Below are positions 1,612-12,405 of a stretch of DNA of 64,000 nt, one piece after another. The stretch's first letter is position 1. Each line of letters opens with the position of its first letter. Below the pieces are notes generated by a model. That model was not told where the DNA came from and did not search any database. It was given only the letters and a program-made list of their open reading frames with translations. Made by a program: the position numbers and the translations under genes. The stretch is from Thermodesulfobacteriota bacterium. Lineage in GTDB: Bacteria > Desulfobacterota_D > UBA1144 > Nemesobacterales > UBA2774. Location: assembly GCA_040754335.1 (NCBI GenBank), contig JBFMCV010000001.1:372001-436000 (forward strand). Reading direction: 5' to 3'.

Positions 1612-3333
1612 TTACAATACCCTGGTATCCTGGGAAAGACATAATCCCCTGAAAAGATAGCGTTTTATTTTACGCGTAGTCGTTTTGGGGAACTCTTCGA
1701 GCCTCAACGCGAAATGTCTTATCTTCTTGTAGGGTTCAAGCTCCCTGTTGGTTTTCCTGATCTCTTCGCGGAGAAGCTCCCATATTTTCTCAGGTGTCGG
1801 ATGCTCTCCCATCTGCCCGAGCCTCTTCTCCGCTTCTTCCATCTGGGGGTAGATAAGGGCCTGTATATTCACGTCGTCCGGACTGAAGACAAGAGCTTCT
1901 TCTATCAAGGGGGATTTCGTCAGCTTCTCCTCGATTTCTTCGGGAAACACATTCTTTCCTCCCCTCGTCACTATTACGAATTTCTTCCTCCCCGTTATGT
2001 AGAGGTACCCGTCCTCGTCGAAATAACCCATGTCGCCCGTAAGCAGCCACCCGTCGGGAGTTATGGTCTCGTCCGTGGCCGATTTGTTTTTGTAATATCC
2101 GATCATGATGTTCGGCCCCCTGGCCGCTATCTCTCCGTTCCCTTCACTGTCAGTGTCCCTGATTTCGACGTCGCCGCTCGGTATCACCATCCCGATGCTT
2201 TCGGGCTTGGGGTTTGAAGGCGGGTTCACCGCGATGAGCGGAGACGCTTCCGAAAGTCCGTAGCCCTGAATTACCTCGAGCCCGTAACCGGAGAGCCCGG
2301 AAGATACCCACCCGGGCAATGCCGCGCCGCCCGACACGATGAGCCTTATATCGTCGAATCCCAGGCTCTGCCTGATCTTCCTTTTTATGAAGCTCCTGGG
2401 CAGGATGTTCGATACGAACGCTTTAACTCCCTTTTGACCCGACACCTCTTTGTGTATCCTGAGATAGAGCTTTTCCAGTATGAGCGGCGCGCTCAGCCAT
2501 ACGGTCGGCCTAGCGAGCTTCATGTCTTCCAGCAGCTCCCTCGGCTTGAGTCCCCTCCCGTAAAAGACGCTCATCCCGCTTCCGAAAGTAGCGATGAGCC
2601 CTCCCGTGCATTCGTACGAATGGTGTACGGGGAGGATGGAAAACGCCCTGTCCCGAGGGCCGTAGTTTATCGTCCTGTGCACGTCGTCGACGTTCGACAT
2701 TATGTTCCTGTGACTGAGCATTACGCCCTTCGGGTCTCCCGTCGTCCCTGAGGTGAAGAGTATCTCGAGGAGGCTCTCCGGGCCCACGTTCTCCATTGCC
2801 TGCCCCGATGCGTATCTTTCGCATATATCCTCTATATTATCCATAGGGATAATATGCCTCAAGTCCTTGAGTCCGGGCGCGATCGAGAGGATATCCGCGT
2901 AGTATGAGCCCGAGACGATTACCGCTTTCGCGGACGAGAAGGATAGTATGAATCTATGGCTGTCGAGCGGCGCGCGCGCGTCGAGCGGTATAGCGACTGC
3001 CCCTATCCAGGAGACGGCGAAGAGGGATATTCCCCACTCGGGCCTGTTCTCCCCGAGTATCGCCACGTGGTCCCCTTTTTCGATTCCGAGCTCTTTTAGG
3101 TGCCTCGCCAGTTTCTTCACCCGTTCGAGCACCCCGCCGTACGTGAGCTCGAACAGGGTATTCCCTCTCGGCGTGCGGTATGCGACGTTGTCCGGGTACT
3201 TGTCCGTGCTGAACTCGATCAGCTCCGGAAGCGTATTGATTCCGAGCGTGTCCCTGAACGTCGGTATCTTCCTTGACGGCTTCGTATATTTCTTCATCCG
3301 GGCCCGGGTTCCTGCATTTCCTGCATACATCAA
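1612..3333 (-). CDS. AMP-forming acyl-CoA synthetase (long-chain fatty acid-CoA ligase family)
   Basis: This is a 573-residue ANL-superfamily adenylating enzyme, expected to activate a carboxylic acid, probably a fatty acid, to its CoA thioester. The P-loop TSGTTGDPKG is at residues 194-203, the YGLSEASP motif at 358-365, the LTGDMGYFDEDGYLY core motif at about 431-445, and the hinge/A8 region TGRKKFVIVTRGGKN at about 447-461. A C-terminal Lys-rich motif (PKTTTRKIKRY) matches the catalytic-lysine region. The start is uncertain: the frame opens with a TTG at 3333 followed by ATG at 3330, and ATG 3297 (MKKYTKPS) is an alternative; none has a strong Shine-Dalgarno. A small membrane protein gene lies 49 nt upstream on the same strand. 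Substrate chain length cannot be read from the sequence. Confidence 0.88.
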   Translation of the reverse strand: MMYAGNAGTRARMKKYTKPSRKIPTFRDTLGINTLPELIEFSTDKYPDNVAYRTPRGNTLFELTYGGVLERVKKLARHLKELGIEKGDHVAILGENRPEWGISLFAVSWIGAVAIPLDARAPLDSHRFILSFSSAKAVIVSGSYYADILSIAPGLKDLRHIIPMDNIEDICERYASGQAMENVGPESLLEILFTSGTTGDPKGVMLSHRNIMSNVDDVHRTINYGPRDRAFSILPVHHSYECTGGLIATFGSGMSVFYGRGLKPRELLEDMKLARPTVWLSAPLILEKLYLRIHKEVSGQKGVKAFVSNILPRSFIKRKIRQSLGFDDIRLIVSGGAALPGWVSSGLSGYGLEVIQGYGLSEASPLIAVNPPSNPKPESIGMVIPSGDVEIRDTDSEGNGEIAARGPNIMIGYYKNKSATDETITPDGWLLTGDMGYFDEDGYLYITGRKKFVIVTRGGKNVFPEEIEEKLTKSPLIEEALVFSPDDVNIQALIYPQMEEAEKRLGQMGEHPTPEKIWELLREEIRKTNRELEPYKKIRHFALRLEEFPKTTTRKIKRYLFRGLCLSQDTRVL

Positions 3334-8412: not shown

Positions 8413-8670
8413 TCATCCGTTCATCAATTCCTCGATCCTGTCTATGAGTTTCCTGAGCTCCGTTCTATTCAGAGAATAGATGCGGTTTTGTTTTATTTTT
8501 TGCTCTTTGATCAATCCCGCTTCTTTCAGGATCTTCAGGTGGTTCGAGACAGTCGGCTGAGAAATGTTGAATTTGCTCGCTATTTCCCCGGCGCTTGCGT
8601 CGTTCTTCCCTAAAATTTTGAGAATCGTCCTTCTCCGTTCGTCGCTTATCGCTTTGAAAGCACAGCCCAT
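8413..8670 (-). CDS. ArsR-family winged-helix transcriptional regulator
   Basis: This is a small ArsR/SmtB repressor of about 85 residues. The recognition helix region is SQPTVSNHLKILKEAGLI, and the wing is KIKQNRIYSLN. The start at 8670 (MGCAFKAISDERRR) is chosen over the ATG at 8754 for three reasons: GGGGGA lies 7 nt upstream, the paralogue at 12124-12405 begins the same way (MGCPYKAIADDTRR), and the longer frame would run into a palindromic operator. No canonical metal-binding CxC motif is visible, so it may sense something other than a metal. The nearest upstream gene is a DoxX-family protein more than 400 nt away. Confidence 0.85.
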   Translation of the reverse strand: MGCAFKAISDERRRTILKILGKNDASAGEIASKFNISQPTVSNHLKILKEAGLIKEQKIKQNRIYSLNRTELRKLIDRIEELMNG

Positions 8671-9120: not shown

Positions 9121-9558
9121 TTACCCGGAGATCGCACGGTCTACCGACCAGATGCCTCCGCCCTTGATCAGCACTATCAGTCCAAGTCCGACGGCCAATA
9201 GGTGGAACTCAAAACCTTCTCCGGCCTGTGTGCCCGCCCAGTTCATGAAGAAGCCGTTCTGGAGGTGAACAGTAACGATTGCACCGAGCATGATGATAGT
9301 TATTCCCAGTGCTGCCAGCCGGCTGAGAAATCCCACTATGAGACCGAGGGCGCCGAACGATTCTCCTATGATTATTAGAATCGCGACGAATGCCGGGATA
9401 CCGCTGCTCACGAAGAATTCGACAGTACCCGAGAATCCGGCCCCACCGAAAAGTCCGAGGAGTTTTTGCATACCGTGCGGGAGCATTACTATACCGAGAG
9501 TGATTCGAGCTATAAACGCGCCTGTATCGTCGCTTGTACGGAATATTGAGCCTACCAT
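9121..9558 (-). CDS. DoxX-family membrane protein
   Basis: This 145-residue protein has four hydrophobic segments (e.g. FVAILIIIGESFGALGLIVG and AALGITIIMLGAIVTVH). It has the DoxX hallmarks GIVMLPHGMQKLLGLFGG near the N-terminus and NWAGTQAGEGFEFHLLAVG near the third helix. DoxX-like proteins are inner-membrane proteins linked in some bacteria to thiosulfate:quinone oxidation or redox stress; most members are unassigned. The gene stands alone between an ArsR regulator and a long gene-free stretch. Confidence 0.85.
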   Translation of the reverse strand: MVGSIFRTSDDTGAFIARITLGIVMLPHGMQKLLGLFGGAGFSGTVEFFVSSGIPAFVAILIIIGESFGALGLIVGFLSRLAALGITIIMLGAIVTVHLQNGFFMNWAGTQAGEGFEFHLLAVGLGLIVLIKGGGIWSVDRAISG

Positions 9559-10318: not shown

Positions 10319-10840
10319 TTACGGCCTGTGCTCCGGACGACGCCCCCTTAAGGCCGACTCCTCGATTCTTATCCTCCTCCTGAGCGCGATCATGTTAAGG
10401 ACGCTGAACACAGCGCATGTGTAGTAGCAGGAGAACATGAGCGGCACGACTGCTATCTCTATCACCACGGCGAGGTAGTTCGGGTGCTTGATATATTTAT
10501 ATGGACCCGAGCTCACGGCGGGAGACCCCGGCACGACGAGTATCTTCGTATTCCAGAATTTCCCCAGGCTTGCGATAGACCAGTACCTGAGCCCTTGTGT
10601 CAGTAGGAAGATCGTCAGCAGCGCCGGCCAGTAACCGTTAAGGGTTCTCCCCAGCAGGAAGTATTCGGCTGCCAGGGACACGAAGAATGCGGCGTGCATC
10701 AGAACTATCGCTTTGTATCCGCGCCTGTCGTACTCGAGTGCCCCCATTTCCCTGACGACGCGTTCGTTCCGCCTTGCCAGGAGCAGCTCGGACACGCGCT
10801 GAATAATCAAGATGGATATAAAAAGGAGGAAAACTTTCAT
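10319..10840 (-). CDS. Isoprenylcysteine carboxyl methyltransferase-family protein
   Basis: This 173-residue integral membrane methyltransferase of the ICMT type has several hydrophobic helices and the family motif GPYKYIKHPNYLAVVIEI (residues about 112-129), which forms the SAM site with downstream residues. Its ATG overlaps the TGA of the type III polyketide synthase gene (ATGA at 10840-10837), implying translational coupling. In Bacillus subtilis the homologous pair BpsA/BpsB makes alkylpyrones and then O-methylates them, so an O-methyltransferase acting on a polyketide lipid is the likely role here. True protein prenyl-cysteine methylation is improbable in bacteria. Confidence 0.85.
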   Translation of the reverse strand: MKVFLLFISILIIQRVSELLLARRNERVVREMGALEYDRRGYKAIVLMHAAFFVSLAAEYFLLGRTLNGYWPALLTIFLLTQGLRYWSIASLGKFWNTKILVVPGSPAVSSGPYKYIKHPNYLAVVIEIAVVPLMFSCYYTCAVFSVLNMIALRRRIRIEESALRGRRPEHRP

Positions 10841-11901
10841 TCTGTCCTGAAGAGCAGCAGCTCCGAGCTGAACCCGGGCCCGAGCGCTGAAATAATACCG
10901 TATTCGCCTTCGTCCTGGGATTTACTGTCCATGAACTCCTTCAACACATAAAGCACCGTAGGAGATGACATGTTCCCGTGCTCTCTCAGGACCTTCCTTG
11001 AATGCACGAACGTCCCTTCACCGAGGCCGAGGGACCTCTCGTACTCGCTCAGCACCTTCGGCCCGCCCGGGTGGACGATGTAGTGTTTCAGATCGCTTAT
11101 CTTGATGCCGTAGCCAGTTGTGAGCTCTTCGATATTCACCCTCACTCTCTCTCTCACGATCGACGGGATGTCCTTGCTGAATATCGCTTTAAACCCGTCG
11201 TCCACGATTTCCCAGCCCATGACACCGAGCGAATCATAATAGGTCGTGGAGAGGGAATCCAGTAAGCTCGGGCCCCGGCGCCCGTAGAGCCTGTTTTCCT
11301 TTCCCGCTACTACGACGGCCGCGGCGCCGTCCGAAAACAGCGCGAGCGACACCAGGTTGCTTTTCGAAAAGTCGCCGCCGTGGAAGGCAAGACTGCATAT
11401 TTCGGTCGCGATAAGGAGCGCCGCGCTCTTCGGACGGGCTTTCGTGTATTCGAGCGCACGGCTGAGCCCAGCCACTCCCCCGGCGCATCCGAGCCCCCAG
11501 ATCGGGGTGCGTCTCAAATGATTGTCCAGCCTGAGCTCGTTCACGAGGACGGCATCGATTGTGGGTGTGGCGACGCCGGTGCTTGATACATAGAAGATGT
11601 GGTCGACGTCCCCGGGGTCCCCGCCGAATCTATCGAGGCAGTCTGTGAGTGCGGAACGGGATAACGTGAGCGCGCCCGACAGATAGTGCTCGGAGCGCTC
11701 CTTGAAGCTCTTTTCGTTTTCGAACCACTCTTTCGGGTTTACGAATCCCCGGTATTCGATGAGAGAGCTGTCGAACACATCGAGCATCCTGCCCGGGTCG
11801 TGGCCGTTTCTTGAAAGCAGGGTGTGCGCGAAGCTTTTAAGCTCGCTCTGCCGGAATTCATACGGCAGCGAGGCGGTTCCAACCGAAATTATTCTCGACA
11901 T
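10837..11901 (-). CDS. Type III polyketide synthase (chalcone/stilbene synthase-like)
   Basis: This 354-residue thiolase-fold homodimeric enzyme condenses an acyl-CoA starter with malonyl-CoA. The catalytic triad is visible: C139 in GLGCAGGVAGLSRA, H277 in YIVHPGGPKVL, and N310 in REHGNMSSPTVLYVL. The C-terminal GPGFSSELLL matches the conserved GPGxxxE segment of the family. Together with the coupled ICMT-like gene, this suggests an alkylpyrone or alkylresorcinol-type lipid, possibly for the membrane. It lies 220 nt downstream of an ArsR-family gene that ends in its own terminator, so it probably has a separate promoter. Starter specificity cannot be read from sequence. Confidence 0.9.
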   Translation of the reverse strand: MSRIISVGTASLPYEFRQSELKSFAHTLLSRNGHDPGRMLDVFDSSLIEYRGFVNPKEWFENEKSFKERSEHYLSGALTLSRSALTDCLDRFGGDPGDVDHIFYVSSTGVATPTIDAVLVNELRLDNHLRRTPIWGLGCAGGVAGLSRALEYTKARPKSAALLIATEICSLAFHGGDFSKSNLVSLALFSDGAAAVVVAGKENRLYGRRGPSLLDSLSTTYYDSLGVMGWEIVDDGFKAIFSKDIPSIVRERVRVNIEELTTGYGIKISDLKHYIVHPGGPKVLSEYERSLGLGEGTFVHSRKVLREHGNMSSPTVLYVLKEFMDSKSQDEGEYGIISALGPGFSSELLLFRTE

Positions 11902-12013: not shown

Positions 12014-12053
12014 AAAAAGCCGTTTCCAGTAAAAGTATACCGGAAACGGCTTT
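12014..12053 (-). terminator. Rho-independent terminator after the second arsR-like gene
   Basis: Arms AAAGCCGTTTCC (12016-12027) and GGAAACGGCTTT (12042-12053) are perfectly complementary over 12 bp. Read on the minus strand, the hairpin is followed by TTTTT (complement of 12014-12018). It lies about 70 nt past the ArsR stop codon and insulates the polyketide synthase gene from it. Confidence 0.7.
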
Positions 12054-12123: not shown

Positions 12124-12405
12124 TTATTGAGCCCTCATCGGATGGTTATCTTTTCCCGTTAAAGAGGCAAGGAAAAATTTCATATTCTCTATCTTGCTGT
12201 TGTTGAGGGAATAGAGACGGTTTTGTCTCACTTTGCGCTCATTAACGATCTCGGCTTCCTTGAGTATCTTGAGGTGATTCGAGATAGCTGGCTTCGATAT
12301 GTCGAACTTGCTTGCGATATCACCGGCCGCACTCTCCCCCTGGCTCAGGAACTCCAGGATTTTCCTTCTTGTATCATCTGCAATTGCTTTATACGGGCAA
12401 CCCAT
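12124..12405 (-). CDS. ArsR-family winged-helix transcriptional regulator (second copy)
   Basis: This is a 93-residue ArsR/SmtB regulator with recognition region SKPAISNHLKILKEAEIV and wing RKVRQNRLYSLN. It is about 60% identical by eye to the regulator at 8413-8670, so the two are paralogues. An excellent ribosome-binding site, AAGGAGG, precedes the ATG. Like its paralogue it starts MGC and lacks an obvious metal-binding CxC pair. It is the first leftward gene after the divergent pepA and ends in a strong terminator, so it is probably monocistronic. Its target may be the polyketide pair or the divergent pepA region; this is untested inference. Confidence 0.87.
   Translation of the reverse strand: MGCPYKAIADDTRRKILEFLSQGESAAGDIASKFDISKPAISNHLKILKEAEIVNERKVRQNRLYSLNNSKIENMKFFLASLTGKDNHPMRAQ

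Follow-up and report, generated by a model that had tools for sequence, protein, structure and literature searches.

A bpsA-bpsB-type polyketide synthase and methyltransferase gene pair in a genome of an uncultured Dadabacteria lineage

What is made by a type III polyketide synthase (PKS) gene that overlaps a membrane methyltransferase gene, and do the ArsR regulators and DoxX protein encoded around the two govern it? Both questions are raised by a locus in a 64,000-nucleotide stretch of bacterial DNA (hereafter the window). An earlier note on this DNA had read the locus as a coupled pair of the BpsA/BpsB and SrsA/SrsB kind and had suggested a stress-responsive membrane lipid as its product. 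We propose that the two genes form an operon of the bpsA-bpsB type and together produce methylated ring lipids with a long chain, a reading to which we give a probability of roughly 0.85.

Both genes lie on the minus strand. The PKS (10837–11901, 354 aa) matches Chal_sti_synt_N and Chal_sti_synt_C (E = 5e-21 and 1e-20; 75.5 and 74.8 bits against a Pfam cut-off of 27). With both domains above cut-off and a Cys-His-Asn triad it is a type III PKS; the triad, C139/H277/N310, is intact, as the earlier note had stated, and invariant in all 94 aligned type III PKS rows. The DpgA model NF042429 (NCBIfam, cut-off 425 bits) was missed at 187 bits. An AlphaFold model of the PKS (pLDDT 92.8) has as its best PDB match, and so as its closest solved structure, Mycobacterium tuberculosis PKS11 (TM 0.95, 32% identity).

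The methyltransferase (10319–10840, minus strand, 173 aa) belongs to the ICMT family, as judged by its PF04140 match (E = 4e-28; 98.2 bits, Pfam cut-off 24) and by its fold. Its model (pLDDT 94.4) matches the archaeal enzyme Ma-ICMT (4a2n) at a TMq of 0.74 with a weak Foldseek E of 3e-3, and a profile search that also hit 4a2n (E = 3e-5) agrees with this fold match. The PKS stop and the methyltransferase start share an ATGA at 10837–10840 (minus strand), which is common to both open reading frames, as noted earlier. An ICMT-type methyltransferase directly 3' of the PKS is the arrangement of a bpsA-bpsB operon. Rfam gave zero matches in the window at gathering score.

The pair is genuine and not a chance arrangement, because both frames are conserved and relatives keep the overlap. 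The earlier note had staked its reading on such retention, and with start codons in relatives set by a heuristic, 19 of 24 two-gene loci of the Dadabacteria order have a -4 overlap, two a -1 overlap and three gaps of 36, 191 and 259 bases. These 24 come from 27 order-level loci (L002–L028), of which L014 and L027 reach contig ends and L028 has a distant PKS without a partner. In the window's own family, 13 of the 14 loci having both genes show the -4 overlap. L028 (G042:C129) is itself unusual: its two type III PKS genes lie in tandem and are divergent (31–33% identity to the window PKS), an ICMT partner was not found beside them, and the other sampled genomes of its genus, g10, have no PKS match.

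The two genes also occur together genome by genome. The PKS is found at E < 1e-100 in 25 of 60 relatives, 24 of which have the methyltransferase too (split across two contigs in G009); the twenty-fifth, G017, has methyltransferase pieces at a contig end. A strong methyltransferase match was found in just one of the other 35 relatives (G025). None of 14 small f8 genomes has the PKS at E < 1e-100, and 13 of them have merely weak matches of 24–27% identity that are probably KAS III. Three small f8 genomes (L029–L031) have a KAS III-like gene in the vicinity of a DoxX-like open reading frame, possibly by coincidence. Published work already covers type III PKS clusters of Dadabacteria, describing them as common in organic-carbon-associated members and not found in pelagic ones (PMC12795557, citing PMC8115339), a pattern that our 25 of 60 and 0 of 14 fit. 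The words "polyketide", "PKS" and "T3PKS" have no occurrence in the main text of PMC8115339.

Conservation extends across phyla. In the best 80 of 510 named-genome loci confirmed by the scan, a sample that overlaps our other genome set for several Dadabacteria, the methyltransferase is the next gene, on the same strand and at most 86 bases away, in 76; 49 pairs overlap, 22 of those by 4 bases. Three of the four exceptions (L060, L065 and L081) lie on contigs that end about 210 bases or less from the PKS, and at the Zixibacteria locus L098 the partner was not found beside the PKS. Across the 76 rows shared by the two trees, PKS and methyltransferase distances correlate with a Spearman coefficient of 0.75 (reached by 0 of 999 permutations; L068 was dropped from the methyltransferase tree), an agreement partly due to shared host descent, and the nearest neighbour is identical in both trees for only 47 of the 76 rows. 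The two genes are thus a conserved unit, kept together across phyla. The methyltransferase partner is not universal, since no ICMT-like neighbour was found at 8 of 12 plasmid PKS loci examined.

Which hosts carry the pair bears on a further point. Among the matches listed, the nearest named loci are from Candidatus Dadabacteria (84% PKS identity), a lineage whose cell type we take to be Gram-negative. The earlier suggestion of a probably Gram-negative host stands, and its implication that such a host is noteworthy does not, as the pair also occurs in genomes titled Ignavibacteria and Bacteroidetes (among the matches listed) and on plasmids of Nitrobacter and Marinovum, where the overlap is again -4. 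The Nitrobacter pair is annotated as a type III PKS and an isoprenylcysteine carboxylmethyltransferase.

We asked where the synthase falls among type III PKSs, with Bacillaceae loci and the Streptomyces locus L135 standing in for BpsA, SrsA, ArsB and ArsC. L135 was taken as the srs/pkq-type stand-in because genes for a PKS, an ICMT-family protein and a FAD_binding_3 protein are consecutive there. In a careful tree of 52 rows chosen from 94, the window PKS lies inside a 45-row clade (support 98/95) of Bacillaceae, Thermoactinomycetaceae, Ignavibacteriota/Bacteroidota and alphaproteobacterial plasmid enzymes, the last including a Rhizobium enzyme that is one of the eight without an ICMT-like neighbour. 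PKS11 and L135 fall outside. The 94-row tree, which includes long branches and was built after 17 Bacillaceae rows had been removed by hand along with identical duplicates, gives the same split (97 SH-aLRT). The window PKS thus groups as BpsA-type, with the Bacillaceae stand-ins and apart from PKS11/Srs-type, THNS and DpgA enzymes. The phylogeny that the earlier note had called for, against BpsA, ArsB/ArsC and SrsA groups, is answered to the extent that stand-ins for BpsA and SrsA allow: it favours the Bacillaceae side over the Streptomyces/Mycobacterium type, and so sharpens the original comparison.

The likeness to bpsA-bpsB of Bacillus subtilis is that of a PKS with an adjacent methyltransferase in two genes, and of a supported clade shared with Bacillaceae enzymes whose loci have an adjoining ICMT-type gene, bpsA itself being absent from the tree. 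The differences lie in host phylum, in sequence (43–47% PKS identity to Bacillaceae, among the matches listed) and in neighbours, which are ArsR and DoxX here and xpt and pbuX upstream of the pair in a Priestia abyssalis member; xpt-pbuX is also the gene context of B. subtilis bpsA, and in this the Priestia locus speaks for the bpsA-bpsB reading. Because the methyltransferase is only 47–48% identical to the Bacillota ones compared, its substrate may differ from theirs. One record in the trees stands apart: at L132 (CP065518.1, labelled a Stenotrophomonas rhizophila plasmid) the PKS groups with Ureibacillus (100/100), as does the methyltransferase, and a FosB-like gene lies nearby. The record may be mislabelled Bacillota DNA or reflect a transfer.

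Going by what is known of the family, the PKS would load a long-chain fatty acyl thioester on C139, extend it with malonyl-CoA and cyclise the chain, yielding an alkyl alpha-pyrone, an alkylresorcinol (resorcylic acid) or both. The ICMT-type enzyme, predicted to be membrane-embedded and made by coupled translation, would then methylate a ring hydroxyl from SAM, and the resulting methoxy-capped amphiphilic lipid would sit in the membrane. For the Bacillus enzymes, BpsA is reported to convert long-chain acyl-CoA to triketide pyrones, and co-expression of BpsB to yield their methyl ethers (PMC4901931). The bpsA-bpsB operon is described as widespread, wild-type B. subtilis as containing C15 alkylpyrones, and BpsA/BpsB as giving triketide pyrones, their methyl ethers and small amounts of alkylresorcinols (PMC5686519).

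The product ring is the less settled part of this proposal. Clade membership is the sole pointer to a pyrone, since triketide pyrones are the main products of the characterised Bacillus enzyme; by this analogy we somewhat favour a pyrone and regard a resorcinol as possible, if less probable. Residue W230 of the PKS aligns with W230 of PKS11, and Trp230 of the mycobacterial enzyme MMAR_2474 is equated with the ArsB tryptophan (ArsB-281) needed for resorcinols, PKS11 being among the enzymes that keep it (PMC5916927). W230 would argue for a resorcinol, yet it does not discriminate between the two rings, because 90 of 94 rows have a tryptophan there, those of Bacillaceae among them. A Pfam scan found no acyl-donor gene among the genes adjoining the pair. 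A FadD-like AMP-binding ligase lies about 7 kb downstream (1612–3333, minus strand) and stays within this synteny block in 9 of the 13 family regions; the idea that it supplies the acyl starter is speculation.

The flanking genes were the basis of the stress-lipid claim, and as gene calls they are sound. An ArsR/SdpR-like regulator lies upstream (12124–12405), a DoxX-family membrane protein downstream (9121–9558) and an ArsR/SdpR-like paralogue beyond it (8413–8670), all on the minus strand. The listed start of the last (8754, TTG) is probably too early, with relatives supporting an ATG at 8670. The two ArsR proteins are 49% identical over the aligned proteins, and when the genome is searched with the upstream one, the downstream one ranks first after the query itself (55% identity across 75 residues). 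Both pass the broader NCBIfam model NF033788 (79.4 and 76.3 bits, cut-off 55) and fall below that for the SdpR-family autorepressor, NF033789 (95.5 and 92.0 bits, cut-off 100).

Such a setting could form a regulon in which the pair and DoxX are held down by the two SdpR-like ArsR proteins until a redox or metal signal lifts the repression, giving a stress-responsive lipid. The gene order ArsR-PKS-ICMT-DoxX-ArsR is kept in the family: all 13 regions fetched have the first ArsR and DoxX, and 11 have the second ArsR, the contigs of the remaining two ending before its position. Every one of 20 aligned ArsR proteins, both paralogues included, has Cys3. Other observations speak against the regulon. 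In seven regions outside the family, neither ArsR nor DoxX was found close to the pair at E up to 1e-4, and the pair is therefore independent of both. Where scanned, the gene upstream of the PKS in those regions encodes not ArsR but a cupredoxin (L043, 7621–8046; L044, 8472–8891; L050, 8585–9004; L051, 8479–8886) or a CBS-domain protein (L045, 9454–9894; L061, 4403–4837). The ArsR-type metal-binding cysteine pair was not seen in the ArsR proteins. By-eye, unscored inspection of the four upstream regions found short palindromes near the two ArsR promoters and none consistent at the PKS promoter, so that a shared operator is not established.

The stretch between the upstream ArsR and the PKS also speaks against joint control. 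A folding search found a terminator-like hairpin followed by a T-run at 12018–12051 (minus strand) that a simple terminator scan did not list. The same search found hairpins of -14.5 to -26 kcal/mol in 13 of 14 family loci; at L035 the hairpin is absent by the rule used. An earlier control with single-base shuffles was repeated with dinucleotide shuffles of the same stretch, and in each of the 13 loci 0 of 10 reached the observed hairpin, although one shuffle of the window stretch, at -15.5, surpassed the weakest of the real hairpins (-14.5, at L040). With such a hairpin 3' of the upstream ArsR at 13 of the 14 loci, the pair is probably transcribed separately from that gene. A conserved gene order whose members are transcribed separately says little about control, so that ArsR control and a stress role stay an unsupported lead; the regulon is unlikely in our view. 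A more specific version, in which one Dadabacteria family has placed a phylum-crossing BpsA/BpsB-type cassette under two SdpR-like ArsR proteins with invariant Cys3, together with DoxX, as a thiol- or redox-switched membrane-lipid module, is distinctly unlikely.

Could the lipid instead be a precursor of an electron carrier? DoxX is linked to quinone-dependent systems, and ten FAD_binding_3-like proteins are encoded elsewhere in the genome; an oxidoreductase acting from such a distance might hydroxylate a methylated alkylresorcinol to an alkylbenzoquinone. This is the chemistry of srsABC of Streptomyces griseus and pkqABC of Mycobacterium smegmatis, which share with the window pair a tryptophan at the ArsB-281 position (PMC5916927, PMC9927152) and a downstream methyltransferase. 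Unlike in those operons, no FAD oxidoreductase was found among the scanned neighbours of the pair, here or in relatives: the next window genes encode DoxX and ArsR, and PF01494 has no match in the window. The PKS also groups apart from L135 and from PKS11, and we judge the quinone route very unlikely. The hidABC or planctomycetal alkylresorcinol operon likewise joins a type III PKS to a methyltransferase gene and differs in its order of methyltransferase, oxidoreductase and PKS (PMC10896814; Paludisphaera L137), its PKS forming a long, separate branch in the 94-row tree.

An ordinary isoprenylcysteine or phospholipid methyltransferase that merely adjoins the PKS, as the Pfam family and a weaker PEMT match might suggest, is hardly credible given the adjacency across phyla (76 of the best 80 of 510 loci), the agreeing trees and a score of 24 bits against the 160-bit equivalog cut-off of NF040696 (NCBIfam) for true isoprenylcysteine methyltransferase.

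We conclude that the pair is of an ordinary, already described kind, in a little-studied, uncultured Dadabacteria host. By itself it opens no new question; the ArsR and DoxX genes kept around it throughout the family offer a modest lead. The finding brings an uncultured phylum into the range of a known two-gene lipid pathway, and the persistence of the two genes together across phyla supports reading the methyltransferase as a dedicated partner of the synthase.
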